64,000 nucleotides of DNA from Brevundimonas sp. (lineage in GTDB: Bacteria > Pseudomonadota > Alphaproteobacteria > Caulobacterales > Caulobacteraceae), in assembly GCF_013912005.1 (NCBI RefSeq), contig NZ_JACESB010000003.1, forward strand, positions 1 to 64,000, in the 5' to 3' direction. This document shows positions 3,697 through 64,000 of the stretch, piece after piece. The position numbers and the translations under genes are program-made. The first letter of the stretch is position 1, and each line of letters starts with the position of its first letter. Under the pieces are notes generated by a model. The model searched no databases. It was not told the DNA's origin and saw nothing but the letters and a program-made list of their open reading frames with translations.

Positions 3697-4295
3697 GTCC
3701 TCAGCACTCCGGCGCGCCGCAGCTCGGCCAGCACCGGCCACAACGGCATGCCGAGCACGGTGAAATAGTCCCCCTCGACCGCCTCGAACAGCTGGGCGCC
3801 CATGCCCTCGAGCCGGTACGAGCCGACGCAGGCGAGCAGGGCCTCGCCCTCCGCGGCGAGGTAGGCGTCGAGAAAGGCCTCGGAGAAGTCGCGCACCCGC
3901 AGGGTCGCCGTGTCGACCCCGGACCAGACGACCTGGCCGTTGCGGGCGAGGGCCGCGCCGGAATGCAGGTGGTGGGGACGGCCGCGCATCGACAGCAGCC
4001 GGGCGCGCGCCGCAGCGAGCGAGGGGGCCTTGGAGACGAGCCCGCCGTCGAAGGCGAGGGTCTGGTCGGCGCCCAGCACCCAGGCCTCGGGATCGCGGCG
4101 CGACACCGCCAGGGCCTTGGCCCGCGCCAGCTCCCCGGCCAGTCCGGCGGCGTCCGCCGGGTCGTGCATCGCCTTGACCGCGGCCTCGTCCACATCGGCG
4201 ACGTCGACGGAGAAGGGCACGCCGGCGTTCGTCAGCATGGCGCGGCGGGCGGCGCTCTTCGAGGCCAGCACCAGGCGTTCGCCGGACGGGCTCAC
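3693..4295 (-). CDS. maf: Maf-family nucleotide pyrophosphatase
   Basis: Maf/YceF/YhdE-family hydrolase of non-canonical or excess nucleoside triphosphates. The 200-residue protein has the family N-terminus [12 protein letters not shown] (about 10-21), close to the usual LASxSPRR, and the catalytic Asp77 in GADQTL. The GTG start at 4295 overlaps the stop of the upstream regulator gene (GTGA). The next gene aroE begins inside its stop codon. The subfamily (dTTP/UTP versus m7GTP type) cannot be decided by eye. Confidence 0.9.
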
Positions 4296-5161
4296 CAGGC
4301 GGTCCCCACGCGGTGGGTGCGCTTCTCGTTGAGCACGTTGATGATCGCCGCGGCGGTCTCCTCCACCGACCGGCGGGTCACGTCGATGACCGGCCAGCCC
4401 CGCCGTTCGAACAGCCGCCTCGCCTTCACCGTCTCCTCGCGCACCGAGTCATGGTCGACATAGGCGCTGGCGCGGTGGGCGTTGAGGCCGTCCAGCCGGT
4501 TCTTGCGGATCTGCACCAGCCGGTCCGGCGACACGGTCAGGCCGATGACCAGCGGGTTCCTGAGCTTGGTCAGGCGCTCGCCGTCCTCCTGTCCGGGCAC
4601 CAGCGGCACATTGGCCGCGCGGATGCCGCGGTGGGCGAGATAGATGCAGGTCGGGGTCTTGGAGGTCCGGCTGACGCCGCACAGCACCACGTCCGCCCCC
4701 TCCAGCTGGTCCGTCGTGCCCTGGCCGTCGTCGTGGGCCATGGCGAAGTCCAGGGCGGCGATGCGGTTGAAGTAGTCGGTGTCCAGGGCGTGCTGGGCCC
4801 CCACCCGGGTGGACAGGGCCGCGCCGAGGTACCGCGACAGGGCGCCGACCAGCGGATCGAGCGCGGCGATCTGCGGCGTGTCCAGCCGGCGGCAGCCCTC
4901 CTCCAGCTGCTCGCGCAGCTCGCGGTCGACGAGGGTGTGCAGCACCACGCCCGGGGCCGAGGCGATCTCCTCCAGCACCCGGTCCATCTGCCGCTCCGAC
5001 CGCACCAGGGCGTAGATGTGCTCGATGGGGATGACCCCGTCGAAGCGCGCGACGACCGCCTTGGCCATGGCGTTCAGCGTCTCGCCGGTGGAGTCCGAGA
5101 CGAGGTGGACGTGGAAGTAGGTCGCCAGCCGCGAGGGGCCGGAAGGACGGCCGGGACTCAT
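4292..5161 (-). CDS. PPDK/PEP synthase regulatory kinase-pyrophosphorylase (DUF299)
   Basis: Bifunctional Ser/Thr kinase-phosphotransferase family controlling pyruvate phosphate dikinase or PEP synthase by ADP-dependent phosphorylation and Pi-dependent dephosphorylation. The 289-residue form from ATG 5161 begins near the conserved FHVHLVSDSTGETL; the ADP-binding P-loop GVSRTSKTP lies at 162-170. An in-frame ATG at 5248 would add 29 Arg/Pro-rich residues that reach into the predicted origin and is rejected. In C. crescentus this gene (CC_0001, formerly RP001) directly flanks Cori, opposite hemE, exactly as here. It is the first gene of a five-gene leftward operon. Confidence 0.92.
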   Translation of the reverse strand: MSPGRPSGPSRLATYFHVHLVSDSTGETLNAMAKAVVARFDGVIPIEHIYALVRSERQMDRVLEEIASAPGVVLHTLVDRELREQLEEGCRRLDTPQIAALDPLVGALSRYLGAALSTRVGAQHALDTDYFNRIAALDFAMAHDDGQGTTDQLEGADVVLCGVSRTSKTPTCIYLAHRGIRAANVPLVPGQEDGERLTKLRNPLVIGLTVSPDRLVQIRKNRLDGLNAHRASAYVDHDSVREETVKARRLFERRGWPVIDVTRRSVEETAAAIINVLNEKRTHRVGTAW

Positions 5162-5655
5162 GGGGACGATCTGTCCATGACGCGGGGGACTCCTGTGGAC
5201 GGGGCGGGGCGCCGATCCGCCGGCGGCGGGCGCCGATTTCCATAGCAAGCGGGCGGCGCCCCCGCGAGCGGGGATGAGGGTGGAGGGACGGACCGCCTGT
5301 CCGGCGAGTCGTCCCGGGCGGACCGGGGTCGTCCTCCGGCCGCTGTGGAGGACTCCGGTTCGCCCGATCGGCGCCCGTCGGCCCGACCGGGGTCCCCTCC
5401 CGCAAGGACGGGCCCGTTAAGGTCTTGTTAGGACTTTTCCCCGGTTTCGACAGGGCCGACGAGGCTGTCGATCAGCCTGTGGGCGGTGCGGGCGCCGCCC
5501 CGCGACGGTCGCGATATGTTCCGCCGGTTGTCCCCGTCGTCCCCGGCCCAACCTCTTCCTTCGCCTTTCTTCAATTCGAATGATGGGAAGGGAAAGGGGT
5601 GCGACCTTGCTCCGGGCTTGAGCGCGGACCGGGCCGCCGGTAAGGCCAAGGGTGC
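5162..5655. other. oriC: predicted chromosomal replication origin (Cori-like)
   Basis: This 494-base gap between the DUF299 regulator and hemE is the Cori position of Caulobacter crescentus. It holds no credible gene. Visible features: a CtrA-type site TTAA-N7-TTAG at 5417-5431; CcrM methylation sites GANTC at 5188-5192, 5306-5310 and 5351-5355; degenerate DnaA-box-like motifs containing TGTGG at 5194, 5344 and 5479; and a locally AT-richer stretch at about 5550-5600 that could be the unwinding element. No perfect DnaA box is present. The assignment rests mainly on gene context, plus the CtrA and GANTC motifs. Four parS sites and parAB lie 4-9 kb to the right, in keeping with an origin region. 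Confidence 0.8.
5417..5431. promoter_or_regulatory. candidate CtrA-binding site in origin
   Basis: TTAA-N7-TTAG, one mismatch from the CtrA consensus TTAA-N7-TTAA. In C. crescentus CtrA sites within Cori repress initiation, and one overlaps the hemE promoter. Only this one near-complete site is visible in the gap, fewer than the five of C. crescentus. Confidence 0.55.
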
Positions 5656-6699
5656 ATGACCTCCCCTGACACGCCCCTGTTCCTCAAGGCCCTCGCCGGC
5701 GAGACGACGTCCCGGCCTCCGGTCTGGTTCATGCGTCAGGCCGGGCGCTACCTGCCGGAGTACCGGGCGCTGCGGGCCACCACGCCCGGCTTCATCGAAT
5801 TCTGCCTCGATCCGGAGAAGGCCGCCGAGGCGACCCTGCAGCCGATGCGCCGGTTCGGCTTCGACGCCGCCATCGTCTTCGCCGACATCCTGCTGATCCC
5901 CCGCGCGCTCGGCCAGGACGTCTGGTTCGAGGCCGGCGAGGGGCCGCGGCTCGGGGCCCTCCCGCCGGTGGAGGCGATGCGGGAGAAGACGGCCGGGGCC
6001 GGCGAGGCGCTGAAGCAGGTCGGCGAGACCCTGTCGATCGTGCGCCGGGAGCTCGAGCCGCACCGCGCCCTGATCGGCTTCGCCGGGGCGCCGTGGACCG
6101 TCGCCACCTACATGCTGGACGGCGAGGCGCGGACCATCGGCAAGGGCGAGCGGGCGCAGGCGCGGACCTACGCCTACGCCGAGCCGGACCGGGTCGACGC
6201 GGTGCTGGAGGCGCTGGTCGAGGCCACCGCCCATTATCTGAAGATGCAGGCCGACGCCGGGGCCCAGGCGCTGCAGATCTTCGAGAGCTGGGCCGAGGGC
6301 CTGCCCGACGATCTGTTCGAGCGGCTGGTGCTGCGGCCGCACCAGGCGCTGGTCAGGCGGGTGCGGGAGCTCGGCGTGACCGCGCCCCTGATCGGCTTCC
6401 CGCGCGGCTCGGCGGCGCTCGCCGAACGCTATGCGGCCGAGTGCGACGTCCAGGCCGTGGCGCTCGACACCGCCTGCCCGCTGGCGGTCGGCCGGCGGGT
6501 GCAGGCGATCAAGCCGATCCAGGGCGCGCTCGATCCGCTGTTGCTGCGGGCCGGCGGCCCGCTGCTGGACCGGCGGGTCGACGCGCTTCTGGAGGCGTGG
6601 GGCGACGGGCCCTGGGTCTTCAACCTCGGCCACGGCATCCTGCCCGACGTGCCGATCGCCCATGTGGAGCAGGTTCTGAAGCGGATCGGCGCGCAATGA
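5656..6699 (+). CDS. hemE: uroporphyrinogen decarboxylase
   Basis: Decarboxylates the four acetates of uroporphyrinogen III to coproporphyrinogen III in heme synthesis. The 347-residue protein has the signature PPVWFMRQAGRYLPEY (21-36, with substrate-binding Arg27 and Arg31) and the catalytic Asp77 in VFADILL. ATG at 5656 follows an AAGGG-like ribosome site. It heads a tight hemE-hemH-hemJ operon: its TGA overlaps the hemH ATG. As in C. crescentus it borders the origin, so its expression and origin firing may share CtrA control. Confidence 0.96.
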   Translation: MTSPDTPLFLKALAGETTSRPPVWFMRQAGRYLPEYRALRATTPGFIEFCLDPEKAAEATLQPMRRFGFDAAIVFADILLIPRALGQDVWFEAGEGPRLGALPPVEAMREKTAGAGEALKQVGETLSIVRRELEPHRALIGFAGAPWTVATYMLDGEARTIGKGERAQARTYAYAEPDRVDAVLEALVEATAHYLKMQADAGAQALQIFESWAEGLPDDLFERLVLRPHQALVRRVRELGVTAPLIGFPRGSAALAERYAAECDVQAVALDTACPLAVGRRVQAIKPIQGALDPLLLRAGGPLLDRRVDALLEAWGDGPWVFNLGHGILPDVPIAHVEQVLKRIGAQ

Positions 6700-9853: not shown

Positions 9854-9869
9854 TGTTTCACGTGAAACG
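9854..9869. other. parS: parS site 1
   Basis: TGTTTCACGTGAAACG, 15 of 16 matches to the consensus TGTTNCACGTGAAACA bound by ParB. It lies between rho and the 74-codon gene, ending 11 bases before that start codon. Confidence 0.93.
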
Positions 9870-9880
9870 GAGAACGGCGA

Positions 9881-10105
9881 ATGAAGGTCAACGTCGAGAT
9901 CGACTGCACCCCGGCGGAGGCGCGGGCCTTCCTCGGCCTGCCCGACGTGGCGCCGCTGAACGAGGCCATGGTCGCCGAGATGCAGAAGCGCATGGCCGAC
10001 AATGTCGCCGCCATGCAGCCGGAGGAGCTGATGAAGACCTGGACCAGCTTCGGCCTCCAGGCCCAGGAGCAGTTCCGCAAGCTGATGGAGGCGGCGGTCA
10101 AGTGA
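9881..10105 (+). CDS. small conserved protein, DUF6489-like
   Basis: A 74-residue soluble protein with no signal or membrane segment. It begins MKVNVEIDCTPAEARAFLGLPDV, then an amphipathic helical region rich in Met/Ala/Lys/Glu. From memory this resembles the alphaproteobacterial DUF6489 family, whose function I do not know. Start ATG 9881 follows CGGAGAACGGCGA, a good ribosome site that overlaps the right edge of parS site 1, so ParB binding could affect its expression. It sits between rho and mnmE on the same strand. Confidence 0.75.
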   Translation: MKVNVEIDCTPAEARAFLGLPDVAPLNEAMVAEMQKRMADNVAAMQPEELMKTWTSFGLQAQEQFRKLMEAAVK

Positions 10106-10130
10106 CGGCGTGGCGGGGACGGGACGCGGC

Positions 10131-11438
10131 ATGACCGACACCATCTTCGCCCTCGCCACGCCCCCCGGGCGCGGCGCCGTCGCCATCCTCCGCCTCAGCG
10201 GTCCGGGAACGGATGCGGCCCTCGCCGCCCTCGGCGCGCCGGACCTCAGGCCCCGCCACGCCAGCCTGCGTCGCCTGTCCCACGACGGCCGCCGCATCGA
10301 CGAAGCCCTCGTCCTCCGCTTCCCCGCGCCGAACTCCTACACCGGCGAGGACAGCGCCGAGCTCCACCTCCACGGCGGGCGGGCGGTGGTCGAGGCTGCC
10401 GGCGAGGCGCTGATCGCCCTCGGCCTGCGCCCGGCGGAGCCCGGCGAGTTCACCCGCCGCGCCTTCGAGAACGGCCGGATGGACCTGGCCCAGGCGGAGG
10501 CGGTGGCCGATCTGGTCGACGCCGAGACCGCGGCCCAGGCAGCCCAGGCCTTGGGCCAGCTGGACGGCCGCCTCAGCCAGACCTACGCCGGCTTCCGCCG
10601 CGACCTGCTCCGCGCCCTGGCGCTGGTGGAGGCCGAGATCGACTTCCCCGACGAGGAGGTGCCGGACAATCTGGCGCGCACCGCCGGACCGGTGCTGGAC
10701 GGGCTGATCGCGGATCTGAAGGCGGCCCTCGCCGACGCGCGCCGCGGCGAGCGGGTGCGGGCAGGCTACCGGATCGTTCTGATCGGCGAGACCAACGCCG
10801 GCAAGTCTTCCCTGTTCAACGCCCTCGTGGCGCGCGAGGCGGCCATCGTCACCCCGATCGCCGGCACGACCCGCGACGTGCTGGACGCCGACCTGGTGAT
10901 CGGCGGCTATGCGGTGACCCTGTCCGACACCGCCGGCCTCCGCGACTCCGAGGATCCGGTCGAGGCCGAGGGAGTCCGCCGCGCCCGCGCCCGCGCCGCC
11001 GAAGCCGACCTGCGCCTGTGGGTGCGCGGGCCGGGCGACCCGGACGGCGCGGCGGCGGACTTCGTCCGGCCGGACGACCTGCTGGTGCTCACCAAGGCCG
11101 ACCTCGACCGCGCCGCGCCGCCGCCGGACCGGCCTGCGATCGTGGTCAGCACGGCGACCGGGGAGGGGCTCCCCGCCCTGCACGACTGGATCGCCGCCCG
11201 GCTGGCGCGGGATCTGTCCGGCGCCGACTTCCCGGCCGTGACCCGCGAGCGGCACCGGCGGCGGCTGGAGGAGGCGCTGGCGGCGGTCGAGGCGGGCCGC
11301 CGCGCCCTCGACCTCGCGCCCGAGATGGCCGGCGACGATCTGCGTCGGGCCGCGGATGCGCTCGCGCGGGTCACCGGGGCGATCGGCGTCGAGGACATCC
11401 TCGGCGAGGTCTTCGCCAGCTTCTGCATCGGCAAGTAG
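10131..11438 (+). CDS. mnmE: tRNA modification GTPase MnmE
   Basis: With MnmG it forms the complex that installs 5-(carboxymethyl)aminomethyl groups on wobble uridine of tRNAs. The 435-residue protein has the N-terminal tetrahydrofolate-binding domain, a helical domain interrupted by a G domain (G1 GETNAGKSS at 219-227, G2 GTTRD, G3 DTAG, G4 TKAD), and the hallmark C-terminal FCIGK with Cys432. G1 has Thr where Pro is common before NAGKSS, and G4 has Thr for the usual Asn; both are conservative. mnmG follows after a parS site, with 60 bases between the genes. Confidence 0.95.
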   Translation: MTDTIFALATPPGRGAVAILRLSGPGTDAALAALGAPDLRPRHASLRRLSHDGRRIDEALVLRFPAPNSYTGEDSAELHLHGGRAVVEAAGEALIALGLRPAEPGEFTRRAFENGRMDLAQAEAVADLVDAETAAQAAQALGQLDGRLSQTYAGFRRDLLRALALVEAEIDFPDEEVPDNLARTAGPVLDGLIADLKAALADARRGERVRAGYRIVLIGETNAGKSSLFNALVAREAAIVTPIAGTTRDVLDADLVIGGYAVTLSDTAGLRDSEDPVEAEGVRRARARAAEADLRLWVRGPGDPDGAAADFVRPDDLLVLTKADLDRAAPPPDRPAIVVSTATGEGLPALHDWIAARLARDLSGADFPAVTRERHRRRLEEALAAVEAGRRALDLAPEMAGDDLRRAADALARVTGAIGVEDILGEVFASFCIGK

Positions 11439-11445
11439 GGCCCCG

Positions 11446-11463
11446 GCGTTTCACGTGAAACGC
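11446..11463. other. parS: parS site 2
   Basis: An 18-base perfect palindrome GCGTTTCACGTGAAACGC in the mnmE-mnmG gap. The 16-base core (11447-11462) matches the consensus at 14 positions, differing only at the two outermost bases. Confidence 0.9.
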
Positions 11464-11498
11464 TGCGGCTCCGGTGGCGGGCGAGAGGGAAATCGACT

Positions 11499-13367
11499 AT
11501 GTCCCCGCCCATGCATACCTTCGACGTCATCGTCATCGGCGGCGGGCACGCCGGCTGCGAGGCCGCGGCCGCCTCCGCGCGCGCCGGCGCGCGGACCCTG
11601 CTGCTGACCCAGAAGCTCGAGACCATCGGCGAGATGTCGTGCAACCCGGCCATCGGCGGCCTCGGCAAGGGGCATCTGGTGCGCGAGATCGACGCCCTCG
11701 ACGGCGTCATGGGCCGGCTGGCGGACGTCTCCGGCATCCAGTTCCGCCTGCTGAACCGCTCCAAGGGGGCGGCGGTGCAGGGCCCTCGCAGCCAGATCGA
11801 CCGGCGCCTCTATCGTGAGGCCATGCAGGCCGAAATGGCGGCCACCCCGAACCTGACGCTGATGGCGGGCACGGCGGAAAGCCTCCGCCTCGAGGGACAA
11901 AAGGTCGCCGGCGTGGTCACCGGCGACGGCCTTGAGCTGCGCGCGGCCGCGGTCGTCCTGACCACGGGCACCTTCCTCAACGGCGTGATCCACAAGGGCG
12001 ACCAGCGCATCCCCGCCGGTCGTCACGGCGAGGCGCCGTCCACCGGCCTCGCCGCCGACCTCTACGGCGCCGGTCTCCGGATGGGCCGGCTGAAGACCGG
12101 AACGCCGGCGCGGCTCGACGGTCGGACCATCGCCTGGGATCGCCTCGACCGGCAGGAGGCGGACGCCGACCCGGTTCCGTTCAGCTTCCTCACCGACCGC
12201 ATCGCCGTCCCCCAGATCGCCTGCGGCGTCACCCACACCACGGAGGAGACGCACCGCATCATCGCCGCCAACCTCGGCGAAAGCGCGGTCTACGGCGGGC
12301 ATCTGTCGGGACGGGGCCCGCGCTACTGCCCGTCCATCGAGGACAAGGTGGTTCGCTTTGCCGACAAGACCTCGCACCAGATCTTCCTCGAACCCGAGGG
12401 TCTCGACGATCCCACCGTCTATCCGAACGGTATCTCGACCTCGGTCTCCGACGCCACCCAGCTCGCCTTCCTCCGCACCATCCCGGGGCTGGAGGCGGTG
12501 GAGGTGTTCCGCTTCGGCTATGCGATCGAGTACGACTACGTCGACCCGCGCGAGCTGACGCCGGCGCTGGAGGTCAAGCGGCGGCCGGGCCTGTACCTCG
12601 CCGGCCAGATCAACGGCACCACCGGCTATGAGGAGGCGGGCGCCCAAGGCCTGATCGCCGGACTCAACGCCGCCCGGGCCGCGGCCGGATCGGACCCGCT
12701 CGTCCTCGGCCGGGATCAGGCCTACATCGGCGTGATGATCGACGATCTGGTCACACGCGGCGTGACCGAGCCCTACCGTATGTTCACCAGCCGGGCGGAG
12801 TACCGGCTCAGCCTGCGCGCCGACAACGCCGACCAGCGCCTGACCCCCCTCGGCCTCGCGGCCGGGGCGGTCGGGTCCGCCCGCGCCGCCGCCTGGGCGG
12901 CGAAGGCGGCCGAGCTCGCGGCGGCCCAGGCCGTTTCACGTGAAACCCTCTTCACGCCCAAGGAGGCGGGGCAGCTGGGCGTGAAGGTCAACGCCGACGG
13001 TCAGCGCCGCTCGATCCGCGATCTCCTGTCCTTCCCCGGGGTGACGCTCGACACCTTCCGGTCGGTGCGCCCGGAGATCGCCGGCTGGTCGCGCCAGGTG
13101 CGGGAGCAGATCGAGATCGACGCCGCCTACGCCGGCTACCTCGACCGCCAGGCGGCGGACGCCGAGGCCCTGCGCCGCGAGGAGGCCCTGGCCCTGCCGG
13201 TCGACCTCGACTATGCGGCGATCGGCGGCCTGTCCCACGAGGTGCGCGAGAAGCTGGCCCTCGTGCAGCCCCGCACGCTCGGCCAGGCAGGCCGCATCGA
13301 GGGCATGACGCCGGGGGCGCTGACGGCGCTGCTGTCGCACGTCCGGAAGGCGAAGGTCGCCGCGTGA
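11499..13367 (+). CDS. mnmG: tRNA uridine-5-carboxymethylaminomethyl modification enzyme MnmG
   Basis: FAD-dependent partner of MnmE in wobble-uridine modification (formerly GidA). The 622-residue protein begins with the dinucleotide-binding motif GGGHAGCE (14-21), followed by the conserved [14 protein letters not shown], the second signature [10 protein letters not shown], and [20 protein letters not shown] 11499 has a GAGAGGGA ribosome site 9 bases upstream; ATG 11511 is an alternative 4 codons later. A parS site lies in the coding sequence at 12932. Confidence 0.95.
12932..12947. other. parS: parS site 3 (inside mnmG)
   Basis: CGTTTCACGTGAAACC, 14 of 16 matches to parS with the inner 14 bases exact. 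It lies inside mnmG (about residues 478-483), so the protein has to tolerate these codons. Confidence 0.88.
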
Positions 13368-13383
13368 GGAGTCTCCAATCTCT

Positions 13384-13504
13384 CTCCTCCCCGCAAGGCG
13401 GGGAGGGGGATCGCGTAACGGTGGAGGGGCGCCGGGCCGGGCCTCTCGCTGACTCCTGCACCACCCTGCGGGCGGTCGCCCTCCCCATCCTCGATGGGGA
13501 GGAG
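13384..13504. repeat. intergenic double-hairpin repeat candidate
   Basis: The mnmG-rsmG gap holds two short perfect hairpins: arms 13386-13394/13398-13406 with a 3-base loop, and arms 13480-13489/13493-13502 with a 3-base loop. The CCTCCCC...GGGGAGG style is like the dispersed intergenic elements I recall from Caulobacterales. There is no T-run, so it is not a classical terminator. Only one copy is in this window. Confidence 0.5.
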
Positions 13505-13512
13505 ACGCCCCG

Positions 13513-14133
13513 ATGACTCCGTCCGGGTTCCAGACCCTCACCGGGGCCTCCGACGCGCGGCTCGCCGATCTGGAGACCTTCGCCGTCCGCCTCGCCGAGG
13601 CCAATGCGGTGATGAACCTCGTCGGCCCCGACACCCTGCCGGACATCTGGAACCGGCACTTCTGGGACTCCGCCCAGCTGCTCGCCCTCGCGCCCGAGGC
13701 CAGGACCTGGGCCGACCTCGGGGCCGGGGCGGGGTTCCCCGGCGTGGTTCTGGCGATCCTGCTGAAGGACACGCCCGGCGCCCATGTCTGGCTGATCGAT
13801 TCGCTCGGCAAGCGCTGCCGCTTCCTGCAGCAGGTGGTGGAGGAGCTCGACCTGCCGGCGACGGTGATCAACGGCCGCGCCGAGGCCCAGACCCTCGCCG
13901 TCGACGTCGTCACCGCCCGCGCCGTGGCGGCGATGGACAAGCTCCTCGCCTATGCACAGCCTTATCTACAACGGGGCGCGCGGGGCCTGTTCCTGAAGGG
14001 GGAAAAGGCGGAGCTTGAGGTGGCGGAGGCCCGTCGCCTCTGGCAATTTGAGTCCGACCTCTCCGTCTCGCGCAGCGATCCGCGCGGCCGCATCGTATCC
14101 GTCCGGAGCCTTCGCCGTGTCAAAAGCCGGTAA
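13513..14133 (+). CDS. rsmG: 16S rRNA (guanine-527 N7) methyltransferase
   Basis: SAM-dependent methyltransferase modifying G527 of 16S rRNA (formerly GidB). The 206-residue protein has the RsmG N-terminus with NLVGPD and WNRHFWDSAQLL, SAM motif I DLGAGAGFPG (68-77) and the downstream IDSLGKRCRFLQ. Its TAA overlaps the parA start by 17 bases, so the genes are transcribed together, the standard gidB-parA-parB arrangement of alphaproteobacteria. Confidence 0.94.
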   Translation: MTPSGFQTLTGASDARLADLETFAVRLAEANAVMNLVGPDTLPDIWNRHFWDSAQLLALAPEARTWADLGAGAGFPGVVLAILLKDTPGAHVWLIDSLGKRCRFLQQVVEELDLPATVINGRAEAQTLAVDVVTARAVAAMDKLLAYAQPYLQRGARGLFLKGEKAELEVAEARRLWQFESDLSVSRSDPRGRIVSVRSLRRVKSR

Positions 14134-14932
14134 GACCCGCGTCCTCGCCGTCTCCAACCAGAAGGGCGGGGTGGGCAAGACCACCACGGCGATCAACCTC
14201 GGCACCGCCCTGGCGGCGATCGGCGAGAAGGTGCTGATCGTCGACATGGACCCGCAGGGCAATGCCTCCACGGGACTGGGTGTTCCACGTGAAACACGCC
14301 GGGTGACCATCTACGACGTGGTGGTCGACGGCCGGTCCGTGGACGACGCGGCGGTGCAGACGGCGGTGCCGGGCCTCTGGATCATCCCCGCCGACGCGGA
14401 CATGTCCGGGGTCGAGATCGAGCTCAGCCAGGCCGATCGCCGCTCGTTCCGCCTCCGCGACGCCCTCGCCGCCCAGGGGGGCAAGGGTCAGACCCGGTAT
14501 GACTATGTGCTGATCGACTGCCCGCCGTCCCTGAACCTGCTGACCCTCAACGCCATGGCCGCCGCCGACGCGGTGCTGGTGCCGCTGCAGTGCGAATTCT
14601 TCGCGCTCGAGGGCCTGACGCAGCTGATGAAGACCGTCGAGATGGTGCGCCAGAGCCTGAACCCGGCGCTGGAGATCCAGGGGCTCGTCCTGACCATGTA
14701 CGACCGGCGCAACGCGCTGTCCGGCCAGGTCGCCAACGACGTGCGGGCCCACTTCGGGGACAAGGTCTACGACAGCGTCATCCCGCGCAACGTTCGGGTG
14801 TCGGAGGCGCCGTCCTTCGGCAAGCCCGCCCTGATCTACGACCTGAAATGCGCCGGCAGCCAGGCCTACCTGCGGCTGGCGCGCGAGGTGGTGGCGCGCG
14901 AGCGCAAGCGCCGCGAACAGATCGCCGCCTGA
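14117..14932 (+). CDS. parA: chromosome partitioning ATPase ParA
   Basis: Walker-type ATPase whose DNA-bound gradient pulls the ParB-parS complex to the opposite pole. The 271-residue product from GTG 14117 has the deviant Walker A QKGGVGKTT (15-23, signature Lys16 and catalytic Lys21), Walker A' IVDMDPQG, and DYVLIDCPPS. The GTG is the only reasonable start before the motif; the open frame further upstream is the rsmG region in another frame. A perfect-consensus parS lies inside the gene at 14281. ParA is essential in C. crescentus. Confidence 0.96.
   Translation: MSKAGKTRVLAVSNQKGGVGKTTTAINLGTALAAIGEKVLIVDMDPQGNASTGLGVPRETRRVTIYDVVVDGRSVDDAAVQTAVPGLWIIPADADMSGVEIELSQADRRSFRLRDALAAQGGKGQTRYDYVLIDCPPSLNLLTLNAMAAADAVLVPLQCEFFALEGLTQLMKTVEMVRQSLNPALEIQGLVLTMYDRRNALSGQVANDVRAHFGDKVYDSVIPRNVRVSEAPSFGKPALIYDLKCAGSQAYLRLAREVVARERKRREQIAA
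14281..14296. other. parS: parS site 4 (inside parA)
   Basis: TGTTCCACGTGAAACA, a full match to TGTTNCACGTGAAACA, within parA shortly after the Walker A' motif (about residues 56-60). Confidence 0.95.
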
Positions 14933-30031: not shown

Positions 30032-30046
30032 TTAAGGGGGCATTTA
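30032..30046. promoter_or_regulatory. candidate CtrA-binding site upstream of ftsK
   Basis: TTAA-N7-TTTA, one mismatch from TTAA-N7-TTAA, in the 191-base divergent gap between ftsK and the FAD hydroxylase gene. Such TA-rich half-sites are rare in this GC-rich window. Confidence 0.4.
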
Positions 30047-45215: not shown

Positions 45216-47037
45216 GGCCGAGGTAGCCCGAGCGGCCCGGCTCGCCGTAGCCGAACACCTGCTGGTAGGCCTCGTCCGTCAGGTTCTCGACCCGGCCCGT
45301 CAGCGTCACCGCCTCGTTCAGGGCCCAGGAGCCGGCGAGGTGGGCGACGACGAAGCCTTCGCGCACCCCGCCGGCGTCGTCCTGGTCGCTCTCGGCCCGC
45401 ACCGTCAGGGCCGCCGACAGGCGCCGACCGGTCCAGGCGAGGGTCGCCGAGCCGGCCTGGTCCGGGACGCGCAAGAGACGGGCGCCGGTGGTCTCGTCCC
45501 GGGCGTCGGTCCACGCCCAGGCGGCCGTCAGGTCGAAGCCGCCGCCGAGCGCCGCCCGGCCCTCCAGCTCCACGCCGTCGGTCGCCGTCCGGGCGACGTT
45601 GACATAGACGCTCTCGAAGCTGGCCGGGTCGAAGACGTAGGTGATCTGGTCCTCGACCTTCAGCCGGTAGACGGTGGCGCGACCCTCCAGCCGGCCGTCG
45701 CCGGAGCGCCAGCCGAGCGCCGCCTCGAGCCCCTCCGCCGTTTCCGGCCGCAGGGCCGGGAAGGGCCGGGTCGAATAGCAGAAGTCGCACACCGCCTGGC
45801 TGATCGAGGGCGCCTTGAAGCCCGTGCCCCAGGCGGCCGACAGGGTGGCGCCGGCCCCCGCGTCGAAGGCCGCGGACAGCCGGCCGGTGGTCTTTGACCC
45901 GAAGTCGTCGGTGGCGTCGTGGCGCACCGCCCCGGTGAGGCTGAGACGGTCGACCGGCCGGACCCGGGCGGTGGCGAGGGCCGAGGTGGTCCCCAGCTCG
46001 CCGGTCAGGCCGGTGGAGAGCCGCCCCTCCGTGTCCTCGCGCTCGGCGCCGACGACGAAGTCGACGCCGCGCGCCGCCCCCGCCGCCTGCCAGCGCCAGG
46101 TCTGCCGCGACCCGTCGAACAGCGAGGGGAAGTCGGAGACGGTCTCGCGGCTGAGGTCGTGGGCGGACAGGCTGAACTGGTGGTCGAGGCCGAAGGCCGA
46201 CAGGCGCAGCCGCCCGAAGCCCGACCACTGCTCGCTCGACTGGGTGTCGGGCGTGTCGGCCAGCACGAAGGCGGGGGCGGGGTAGCCGTCGAGATCGACC
46301 TCGGCGTCGGTCCAGCGCAGCGAGCCGTCGACCACGACTCCGGCCGGAAAGGCGTAGCGGCCTTTCGCCCCGACGGTGGTGGAGGCGAGGCCGTCGCGCT
46401 CGCGCGCCCCGTCGCGGGCGTCGGCGGCGGAGACGCCGTCGGAGGCGAGGTGCGACACCCAGGCGCCGAGGGCGCGGTCCGCCGTCACGGTCCCGACCGC
46501 CAGCCGGCCCCGGCGGCTGTCGAAGGCGCCGGCCTCGAGATCCAGCGCCACGCCGTCGGTCTCGCGCGTCGTGAAGGCGATCACCCCGCCGATGGCGTCC
46601 GAACCCCACAGCGACGACTGCGGCCCCGACAGCACCTCGATGCGCTCGACGTCGGCGAGATCGAAGCCGCCGAAGTCGAAGGCGCCGTTGACCTCGGCCG
46701 GATCGTTGACCGGCGCCCCGTCGACCAGCACCAGGGTCTTGCCGGGTCCGGCGCCGCGCATGCGCACCTGGGCCACGCCGCCGAAGGCGCCCGAGCGCAC
46801 CACCGACAGGCCGGGCACATCGGCGAGGATGTCGGCGGCGAACACGGCGCCGCGGCGGTCGATCGCCTCCCGGTCGATCACCCGGGCGCCGGGCGTGTCC
46901 TGGACGATGGTCGGCAGCCGGGTGGCGGTGACCACCACCTCCGGCAGCGGATCGGCGGGCTCGTCCGGCGTGCGGGCGAGAGCGGGCAGGGGCAGAAGCA
47001 CGGCCGCGGCCGTGGTCAGGAGAAGGGTTCGCGACAT
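45199..47037 (-). CDS. btuB: TonB-dependent vitamin B12 receptor
   Basis: Outer-membrane barrel for cobalamin uptake. The 612-residue protein has a signal peptide (1-21), the TonB box PEVVVTAT, a plug domain (about 45-155: VRMRGAGPGKTLVLVDGAPVND, VERIEVLSGPQSSLWGSDAIGG) and a 22-strand-type barrel ending in LRLRY with a terminal aromatic residue. The B12 assignment comes from BtuB-like plug motifs and above all the cobalamin riboswitch just upstream. Cysteines in CDFCYS (barrel) are unusual and may form a disulfide. Confidence 0.9.
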   Translation of the reverse strand: MSRTLLLTTAAAVLLPLPALARTPDEPADPLPEVVVTATRLPTIVQDTPGARVIDREAIDRRGAVFAADILADVPGLSVVRSGAFGGVAQVRMRGAGPGKTLVLVDGAPVNDPAEVNGAFDFGGFDLADVERIEVLSGPQSSLWGSDAIGGVIAFTTRETDGVALDLEAGAFDSRRGRLAVGTVTADRALGAWVSHLASDGVSAADARDGARERDGLASTTVGAKGRYAFPAGVVVDGSLRWTDAEVDLDGYPAPAFVLADTPDTQSSEQWSGFGRLRLSAFGLDHQFSLSAHDLSRETVSDFPSLFDGSRQTWRWQAAGAARGVDFVVGAEREDTEGRLSTGLTGELGTTSALATARVRPVDRLSLTGAVRHDATDDFGSKTTGRLSAAFDAGAGATLSAAWGTGFKAPSISQAVCDFCYSTRPFPALRPETAEGLEAALGWRSGDGRLEGRATVYRLKVEDQITYVFDPASFESVYVNVARTATDGVELEGRAALGGGFDLTAAWAWTDARDETTGARLLRVPDQAGSATLAWTGRRLSAALTVRAESDQDDAGGVREGFVVAHLAGSWALNEAVTLTGRVENLTDEAYQQVFGYGEPGRSGYLGLRLRY

Positions 47038-62646: not shown

Positions 62647-63631
62647 CCACGACCTTGCCGAGGGCGTTGCGCTCGCCCAGCGCCCGGATCGCCTCCCCCG
62701 CCTGCGCCAGCGGCCAGGTCGCGCTGATGCGCGGCCGGATCCGGCCCTCGCCCCACAGGCGGAACAGGTCGGCCATGTTGGCGGCGTGGCCGGCGGGGTC
62801 GCGCATCACCGCCGCGCCCCAGAAGACGCCGACGATCGACGTCGACTTCAGCAGGGTCAGGTTCAGCGGCGGCGCCGGAATGCCGGCCGGGAAGCCGACC
62901 ACCAGGTAGCGCCCGTCCCAGTTCATGGCCCGCAGCGCCGGCTCGCAGTAGTCGCCGCCGACGGCGTCGTAGACCACGTCCGCGCCCTCGCCGCCCAGCA
63001 CCCGCTTCAGGTCGGCCGACAGCGCCTTCTGCTGGTCCCGGTCCAGCGGCCCGCGCGGATAGATCACGCAGTCGTCGGCCCCGGCCTCGCGGGCGAAGGC
63101 GGCCTTCGTCTCGCTCGACACCCCGGCCACGACCCGGGCGCCCATGGCCTTGCCCAGCTCCACGGCGGCGATGCCGACGCCGCCGGCGGCGCCCAGCACC
63201 AGCAGGGTCTCGCCGGCCTTGAGCCGCGCCCGGTCCTTCAGGGCGTAGTAGCTGGTGCCGTAGGTCATGGTCAGGGCCGCGGCGGTCGGGAAGTCCATCC
63301 CGTCCGGAATTTTCATCAGCCGGCCGGCGTCGATCGCCAGCTTCTCGACCATGCCGCCCCAGCCGGGGACGGCGATGACCCGGTCGCCGACGGCGACGCC
63401 CCGGGCGTCCTCGCCCAGCGCCTCGACCACGCCCGCCAGCTCGCCGCCCGGCGAGAAGGGCCGCGGCGGCCGGAACTGGTAGCGGTCCTCGATGATCAGG
63501 GTGTCGGGGAAGTTCACCCCCACCGCCTTCACCGCCACCAGCGCCTCGCCGCGGCCGGGCGCCGGATCGGCGACCGTCTCCAGCGTCAGGGTCTCGGGAC
63601 CGCCGGGGGCGGTGGACAGGATGGCGCGCAT
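62633..63631 (-). CDS. NADPH:quinone oxidoreductase (zeta-crystallin-like MDR)
   Basis: A 332-residue medium-chain reductase without the structural or catalytic zinc cysteines. It has VGVNFPDTLIIEDRYQ, PGGELAGVVEALG, ALTMTYGTSYYAL and the nucleotide fold LVLGAAGGVGIAAVELGKAMG. Belongs to the quinone oxidoreductase subgroup; the actual acceptor is unknown. ATG 63631; the frame continues upstream to 63796 but that part is antisense to the next gene. Confidence 0.88.
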   Translation of the reverse strand: MRAILSTAPGGPETLTLETVADPAPGRGEALVAVKAVGVNFPDTLIIEDRYQFRPPRPFSPGGELAGVVEALGEDARGVAVGDRVIAVPGWGGMVEKLAIDAGRLMKIPDGMDFPTAAALTMTYGTSYYALKDRARLKAGETLLVLGAAGGVGIAAVELGKAMGARVVAGVSSETKAAFAREAGADDCVIYPRGPLDRDQQKALSADLKRVLGGEGADVVYDAVGGDYCEPALRAMNWDGRYLVVGFPAGIPAPPLNLTLLKSTSIVGVFWGAAVMRDPAGHAANMADLFRLWGEGRIRPRISATWPLAQAGEAIRALGERNALGKVVVTVD

Positions 63632-63724
63632 GAAAAAATCTCCGGCGACGCCCCGTGGCGCCCTTCGCGCCGGAACGCTAAGCAGCGCCCCGGCCTTTGC
63701 AAGGGCTTGAGGAGATCCCGCCGC

Positions 63725-64000
63725 ATGACCGCTCTCATCCTCCACGGCGGCGCCGGCGCCCGGCGCGGCGTCAACTACGACCGCGAGGTCGTGCACATGC
63801 GCGAGGTGGTGGAGGCGATGAAGGCGCGGCTGGACGCCGGCGCCCCGGCCCTCGACGTGGCGGTCGAGGCGGTGGTCCGGCTCGAGGACTCCGGCCTGTA
63901 TGTCGCCGGGCGCGGCGCCTCGCCGAACCTGGCCGGCGCCTACGAGCTGGACGCCAGCCTGATGGACGGCCCGACCCGGCGGGCCGGCGCGGTGGCGGCG
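63725..64000 (+). CDS. isoaspartyl peptidase / L-asparaginase, N-terminal fragment
   Basis: First 92 codons of a plant-type (Ntn-hydrolase) asparaginase/isoaspartyl aminopeptidase, cut by the window end. It starts ILHGGAGA, the family's conserved beginning, then LDAGAPALDVAVEAVVRLEDSGLYVAGRGASPNLAGAYELDASLMDG, where the usual NAGxGS loop is GRGASPN. The catalytic Thr (self-cleavage site) lies beyond the window. The 93-base gap from the oxidoreductase gene should contain divergent promoters. Confidence 0.88.
   Translation, partial: MTALILHGGAGARRGVNYDREVVHMREVVEAMKARLDAGAPALDVAVEAVVRLEDSGLYVAGRGASPNLAGAYELDASLMDGPTRRAGAVAA

Follow-up and report, generated by a model that had tools for sequence, protein, structure and literature searches.

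Our subject is a 64,000-nt stretch of DNA (the window) from the 2.89-Mb draft genome of a Brevundimonas near Brevundimonas viscosa, the species with the closest named HemE (95%). The window is the start of contig C23, and its first base is the first base of that contig. A DUF299/COG1806 gene, which we take to be ppsR, and hemE flank a gap of 494 bp, an arrangement that the initial annotation had recognized as the surroundings of the Caulobacter crescentus origin (Cori); the coordinates given there are exact. The DUF299 family name comes from that annotation and from the literature (PMC1914354), rather than from a family search. The locus is laid out as follows:

4292..5161, minus strand: DUF299/COG1806 gene, origin flank (start codon ATG at 5161)
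5162..5655, 494 bp: predicted chromosome replication origin (Cori-type), the ppsR(DUF299)-hemE gap, based on its flanks, the parS cluster and the GC skew of relatives
5656..6699, plus strand: hemE, origin flank (ATG at 5656)
9854..14296: four parS-like sites (9854, 11447, 12932 and 14281), ~4-9 kb from the gap

A consensus scan of 5100-5700 revealed neither a sigma-70-type promoter nor a terminator (other promoter types escape such scans), and no Rfam family matched in an Rfam check of the locus.

The four parS-like sites are all that the genome contains (4/4) at up to two mismatches from a parS consensus. Such sites also lie less than 10 kb from hemE in nine out of nine other genomes searched, and G168 and G171 have additional ones ~17 to 165 kb away. 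The window's contig starts there; GC skew was sampled in three complete relatives, G190, G229 and the diminuta-type G113 (26, 20 and 20 stretches of 20 kb, respectively); these samples are coarse and noisy. In G190, 11/14 samples of the right arm are positive and 9/12 of the left arm negative, and no tested position outscores hemE. The corresponding values are 10/11 and 5/9 in G229, where 7.7% of positions score above hemE, and 9/10 and 8/10 in G113, where 6.0% do. This strand-composition switch, which the initial annotation had proposed as a check, fits an origin at or near hemE in all three relatives. The dnaA gene was not found in the loci of 13 relatives (up to ~21 kb each), which speaks neither for nor against origin status. 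The gap is very probably the chromosome start of replication in this Brevundimonas, a conclusion well supported by the parS-like sites ~4-9 kb away and by the skew of the relatives; from these observations and the gene context, we infer that the gap fires as an origin.

Within the gap, several sites resemble binding sites of the initiator DnaA and of CtrA. Two recurrent CtrA-like positions of the genus, designated S1 and S2, serve as reference points in the following list:

5194..5199, minus strand: TCCACA core in GACTCCTGTGGAC, in a block (5188-5200) that is 98% identical over 27 gaps
5269..5274, minus strand: W-box-like TCCCCG, from a motif scan
5344..5352, minus strand: DnaA-like box TCCTCCACA, where relatives have the box beside S1; it apparently outlived the loss of S1
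5356..5371: former position of CtrA site S1, now lost (from alignment and classification)
5417..5431, plus strand: CtrA-like site S2, TTAAGGTCTTGTTAG, TTAA-N7-TTAG, a 7/8 match
5435..5443, plus strand: DnaA-like box TTTTCCCCG, 3 nt after S2, identical in the three closest relatives
5466..5474, minus strand: G-box-like TGATCGACA, an 8/9 match to the C. crescentus G-box
5528..5545, plus strand: pair of W-box-like DnaA sites, TTGTCCCCGTCGTCCCCG, 88% identical over 27 gaps
5550..5595: AT-richest stretch and candidate unwinding element beside hemE (40-mers at 42.5% GC)

DnaA-like sites exceed shuffle expectation in the gap (TCCCCG four times, TCCACA twice), and the individual boxes look weak. An 8/9 match to TTATCCACA occurs nowhere in the gap, and the G-box and W-box types are present only as the 8/9 G-box-like site and as TCCCCG, in agreement with the initial description of the boxes as degenerate. 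The G-box-like site is not conserved in the genus, as its identity over 27 gaps is 53%; the five gaps of the window's group together hold three 8/9 matches of this type. In G086, a member of the same family and probably a Caulobacter, the end corresponding to the 5194..5199 core carries an exact G-box, in CTCCTGTGGATCA. The AT-rich stretch is the local G+C minimum, where unwinding is predicted, and it is 88% identical to three close relatives and 44% identical over 27 gaps. No IHF-like site scored above threshold in the gap with a loose consensus.

S2 stands out from its background. The pattern TTAA-N7-TTAA with at most one mismatch occurs at two places in the window, S2 among them, against 0.10 expected from shuffles, and at 56 places in the genome, against 14 for a reversed control pattern. 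The other place in the window is 30032-30046, TTAAGGGGGCATTTA. The gap has no second site, its runner-up 15-mer matching at 5/8. In G086, the positive control, the same scan recovers five CtrA-like sites (four of them perfect) together with an exact G-box, all within the 700 nt preceding hemE. Thus, the earlier finding of a single CtrA-like TTAA-N7-TTAG holds, both for the site and for its number. The same genome has the TTAA-N7-TTAG form again 48 nt before its CcrM-type gene (ccrM) starts; in C. crescentus, CtrA targets ccrM. In B. subvibrioides, sciP transcription is described as requiring a CtrA site with a TTAG half (PMC7987155). Compared with the three closest relatives, S2 is 91% and its DnaA-like box 100% identical, whereas the place of the lost S1 is at 79% (gap mean 82%); over 27 gaps, S2 reaches 81% and the S1 place 44%, with a gap mean of 57%.

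How many CtrA sites a Brevundimonas origin typically has can be judged from 144 loci, which give 129 distinct gaps once 14 identical copies are merged and L197, with the DUF299 gene missing from its piece, is set aside. The Brevundimonas set consists of the 107 gaps with HemE of at least 77% identity; gaps below that value, including L193 of the same genus (HemE 73%), and the more distant loci L035 and L037-L084 were left out, and genus genomes with hemE are sampled in part. A metagenome bin labelled Bordetella (L007) has a hemE-DUF299 locus of Brevundimonas type that belongs with the diminuta group, and the label of this bin looks wrong. Sites were classified by a position-and-pair rule at a match of at least 7/8, with S1 ~255-320 nt and S2 ~187-258 nt before hemE. 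Both are present in 65 of the 107 gaps, S2 only in 15, S1 only in seven, and neither in 20, so that S2 is found in 80/107. The usual state of the genus is therefore two CtrA sites, not five as in C. crescentus. Since Brevundimonas mostly has two, five sites do not define such origins across the family. The single site seen here was initially measured against the five of C. crescentus; the count stands, and the origin does look to be of Caulobacter type, but the proper yardstick is the genus with its two sites.

The S2-only gaps include those of the window, B. viscosa (L005), L032, L087 and L088. Parsimony on the 107 gaps requires eight changes for S1 and nine for S2. It puts one S1 loss within a group of nine tips, along with a regain in L092, but support for the nodes of that group is weak, so that S1 may have been lost once or twice. 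The lineage of the window has lost one of the two genus sites, S1. Both sites are typically paired with DnaA-like boxes. A DnaA-like 9-mer of the form T[TC]NTCC[CA]C begins exactly 3 nt after S2 in 66 of the 80 gaps with S2 (most commonly TTATCCCCG, 34 gaps), and a TG[TG]GG core, representing a box in the opposite orientation, ends 5-6 nt before S1 in 68 of 72 S1 sites. In gaps lacking S2, DnaA-like boxes persist in many cases, though not all. The spacing and conservation of the S2-box pair would fit CtrA excluding DnaA, as published for the competition of the two proteins at C. crescentus Cori (PMC4468827, PMC3885167).

Some deep-branching gaps (L185, L189 and L014) contain multiple CtrA-like sites whose registers overlap, with spacings of 11 or 22 nt. 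We considered a shared TTAAGGTCGTATTAAC site as a possible conserved CtrA target and rejected it: in L241 it coincides with the beginning of a dehydrogenase-like reading frame, and a comparable site of the window's genome, in L225, does the same. Among the matches listed from the open-licence literature, no publication deals with CtrA sites at Brevundimonas origins, and none with GGCGCC, a palindrome described below, at a replication origin.

A clade around B. diminuta (18 distinct gaps) has no CtrA-like site at 7/8 or better, nor an excess at 6/8 (0.33 per gap, with 0.62 expected), and the flanking coding ends (up to 400 nt) of the window and these 18 gaps hold no CtrA-like match. Two gaps outside this clade, L094 and L129, also lack a CtrA site. 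The protein itself is widespread: CtrA was detected in 120 of 131 genus genomes (E up to 1e-100), and of the 11 without a match, six are less than 90% complete and five are not, with a strict limit that may miss split genes. The window's genome encodes a CtrA with 88% identity to a C. crescentus CtrA sequence, sharing 97/108 positions of the DNA-binding part. In six diminuta-clade genomes, this domain equals that of the window's genome at 105-108 of 108 positions. The ctrA genes of six genomes of this clade (L279-L282, L288 and L291) all have a 7/8 CtrA-like site 170-172 nt upstream. No such site lies in the ~440-500 nt examined upstream of six ctrA genes from outside the clade, among them that of the window's genome. 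The near-unchanged domain and the site upstream of ctrA indicate that, within what was examined, the loss of CtrA sites is specific to the origin. This raises the question of what restrains re-initiation in the CtrA-free clade, and two candidate methylation motifs suggest themselves, GANTC (CcrM-type) and GGCGCC. In the window's gap they lie at the following positions:

5188..5192: GANTC, from a motif scan
5306..5310: GANTC, from a motif scan
5351..5355: GANTC, from a motif scan
5208..5213: GGCGCC palindrome 1 (block 5207-5214, 96% identical over 27 gaps)
5229..5234: GGCGCC palindrome 2, 21 bp from palindrome 1 (block 5228-5235, 76% over 27 gaps)
5255..5260: GGCGCC palindrome 3, from a motif scan
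5370..5375: GGCGCC palindrome 4, adjoining the lost S1 (block 5369-5376, 94% over 27 gaps)
5491..5496: GGCGCC palindrome 5, from a motif scan

The three GANTC sites were already on record, and the scan finds them at the same positions. The window as a whole is poor in GANTC (72 sites, where shuffles give 251). Three or more occur in 2.6% of the 6242 overlapping 494-bp segments outside the gap, which makes the cluster a mild enrichment. The CtrA-free clade has 5.9 GANTC per gap against 2.4 in shuffles; other gaps have 2.45, with 2.46 expected. Flanking DNA is poorer in GANTC than the gaps in 15 of 15 loci compared.

GGCGCC is prominent alongside the CtrA and DnaA motifs in a k-mer comparison of 55 representative gaps with shuffles, and palindromes 1 and 4 are conserved far above the 57% mean over 27 gaps. 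Per kb, it occurs 7.6 times in the window's group, 16.3 times in gaps devoid of CtrA sites, 4.3 times in the remaining Brevundimonas gaps, 3.4 times in outgroups and 1.9 times in the mostly coding flanks, while seven other palindromes of only G and C stay at or below 2.0 per kb in the gaps. Both motifs are most frequent in the CtrA-free clade, where diminuta-type gaps that have lost both CtrA sites contain up to 11 GGCGCC and up to nine GANTC. For G113, the 7429 overlapping segments of sampled DNA include none that reaches the seven GGCGCC or the seven GANTC of its gap. None of 7800 in G229 reaches five GGCGCC, whereas three GANTC (3.2% of segments) and a single GGGCGCCG-type 8-mer (9.1%) are unexceptional there. 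In the window, five GGCGCC are reached by 2.3% of segments and are unexceptional alone, while the five 8-mers GGGCGCCG/CGGCGCCC of the gap are exceptional (at most four elsewhere). Two 500-bp bins of the window, 46501-47000 and 63501-64000, have seven GGCGCC each, more than the five of the gap, possibly from coding Gly-Ala runs.

GGCGCC is the reported target of the C. crescentus cytosine methyltransferase CCNA_03741; for its ortholog in B. subvibrioides, the same source reports no partner nuclease, and that study was unable to detect m5C (PMC7987155). The G086 enzyme is presumably an ortholog of CCNA_03741, with homologs presumed to share its GGCGCC specificity, and a homolog is present in 124 of 131 genus genomes. 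Gaps are available for six of the seven genomes without the enzyme and hold 0, 0, 0, 1, 2 and 3 copies of GGCGCC, while 99 others average 3.46 (one-sided p 0.007, or 0.02 without CtrA-free gaps, kinship being ignored); the enzyme status of these 99 is assumed from the locus list, and relatives with the enzyme can also be low in GGCGCC. The window's genome encodes a pair of paralogous cytosine-5 methyltransferases that presumably belong to the GGCGCC type (G000:C27:13268-14377 and G000:C39:4988-6112), while most genus genomes have one match. A CcrM-type RAMA protein is found in 12/12 genomes.

We consider it probable that the gap is a Brevundimonas chromosome origin at which one CtrA-DnaA pair restrains initiation, S1 having been lost and its box kept. 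DnaA would load on the weak boxes, of TCCCCG or TCCACA type, and unwind the AT-rich DNA beside hemE. Phosphorylated CtrA on S2 would block DnaA at the adjacent box, as suggested by the conserved DnaA-like box 3 nt away, and thereby restrain initiation. Most of the genus has two such CtrA-DnaA pairs, and the window's lineage has given up S1 while retaining its DnaA-like box. The presence of the motifs, their conservation and the pattern of loss are observed, and from these we infer that DnaA and CtrA bind the predicted sites and exclude each other. Most likely, the one remaining pair still restrains initiation, which would make this a reduced layout, not a new system. The simplification suggested in the initial annotation applies to the CtrA sites, which are fewer, but not to the other parts, given that W-box-like sites, GANTC and GGCGCC are all present.

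Two other explanations concern what the CtrA-like site does. The gap might mainly serve as a promoter region from which DUF299 and hemE are transcribed divergently, the site being transcriptional and replication starting elsewhere. It does sit between divergent genes, CtrA regulates promoters too, and a CTATAG-type block shared by many relatives may represent a promoter element. However, the adjoining parS cluster, the skew of the relatives, the excess of DnaA-like sites, the negative sigma-70-type scan and the gene order shared with the mapped origin of C. crescentus (PMC1914354) make this highly improbable. Alternatively, the gap is the origin and S2 is a decaying remnant, with high-G+C mutation eroding AT-rich sites and CtrA irrelevant there; we regard this as unlikely. 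The window's gap (0.71 G+C) and those of the three closest relatives (0.69-0.70) are indeed among the G+C-richest and lack S1, L116 and L129 (0.70) have also lost one or both sites, and 20 of the 107 gaps do without any. Lowering CtrA affinity in all five C. crescentus sites is reported to have only a mild effect on the replication cycle under laboratory conditions, and the sites are described as becoming essential once cells encounter nutrients and antibiotics together (PMC4468827). Yet S2 is conserved above the gap mean and at fixed spacing from its DnaA-like box, and the CtrA-free clade is not especially G+C-rich (0.54-0.65 in all 18 gaps), so composition alone does not account for site loss. 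The surviving S2 is not clearly a weak remnant, since both it and the box 3 nt away are kept in the three closest relatives and since its TTAA-N7-TTAG form recurs upstream of ccrM.

A further possibility looks beyond CtrA: where its sites are lost, the origin might be timed by DNA methylation, through GANTC (CcrM, m6A) and GGCGCC (m5C enzyme). The enrichment of GGCGCC in Brevundimonas gaps, the peak of both motifs in the CtrA-free clade, the conservation of palindromes 1 and 4 and the wide distribution of both presumed enzymes would all agree with this. Nevertheless, the expansion of the motifs is mostly confined to one clade and thus mostly one evolutionary event, and the CtrA-free gaps outside it, L094 and L129, hold just three and two GGCGCC, while L139 has seven despite a CtrA site. 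Neither the three GANTC of G229 nor the five GGCGCC of the window's gap are exceptional, GANTC matches shuffles outside the CtrA-free clade, some close relatives with the enzyme are as GGCGCC-poor as enzyme-less genomes, and in Rhizobium leguminosarum GGCGCC is described as belonging to restriction-modification loci (PMC8709438). We rate methylation timing as quite improbable, and find it equally doubtful that Brevundimonas origins drifted from CtrA control towards two DNA methyltransferases. If they did, GGCGCC and GANTC could play the part that GATC clusters have in E. coli oriC, holding back a new round of initiation until they are remethylated, and the window (one CtrA site, five GGCGCC, three GANTC) would be an intermediate.

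CtrA at the origin is the textbook link of cell fate to replication in Caulobacter. Within one genus, Brevundimonas offers a natural series of origins in which DnaA-like boxes are accompanied by two CtrA-like sites, by one or by none, with a near-unchanged CtrA DNA-binding domain where examined, so that species comparisons can probe the role of origin-bound CtrA. Origins with few CtrA sites were already known; the CtrA-free clade is a testable lead.

Returning to the preferred reading of one remaining CtrA-DnaA pair, the gap shares with C. crescentus Cori the flanking hemE and DUF299 genes, weak DnaA boxes with CtrA sites close by, an AT-rich stretch and parS nearby, at ~8 kb there (PMC1914354, PMC4468827, PMC6399470). 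It differs in having one CtrA site instead of five, an 8/9 match instead of the exact G-box TGATCCACA, and TCCCCG where the reported Cori W-box is TCCCCA (PMC4285127); an IHF-like site was not found in the gap at the threshold used. For intracellular alphaproteobacteria, origins with few or no predicted CtrA sites have been described (PMC1914354). In Hyphomonas neptunium, CtrA is likewise found at a site adjoining the origin, its binding being measured by ChIP-seq there and predicted here (PMC7200025). With other Brevundimonas origins, the gap shares the S2-DnaA-like pair, weak DnaA boxes and, as is usual, GGCGCC palindromes, but S1, kept beside S2 in 65/107, is gone in the window's lineage. 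Work by Shaheen from 2009 is said to describe, for a marine Caulobacter (Maricaulis MCS10), an origin whose only CtrA site overlaps a DnaA box, which would resemble the window's gap in coupling one CtrA site to a DnaA box. CtrA use in marine Caulobacter has been described as probably independently evolved (PMC4468827), whereas the single site of the window would be what is left of two.
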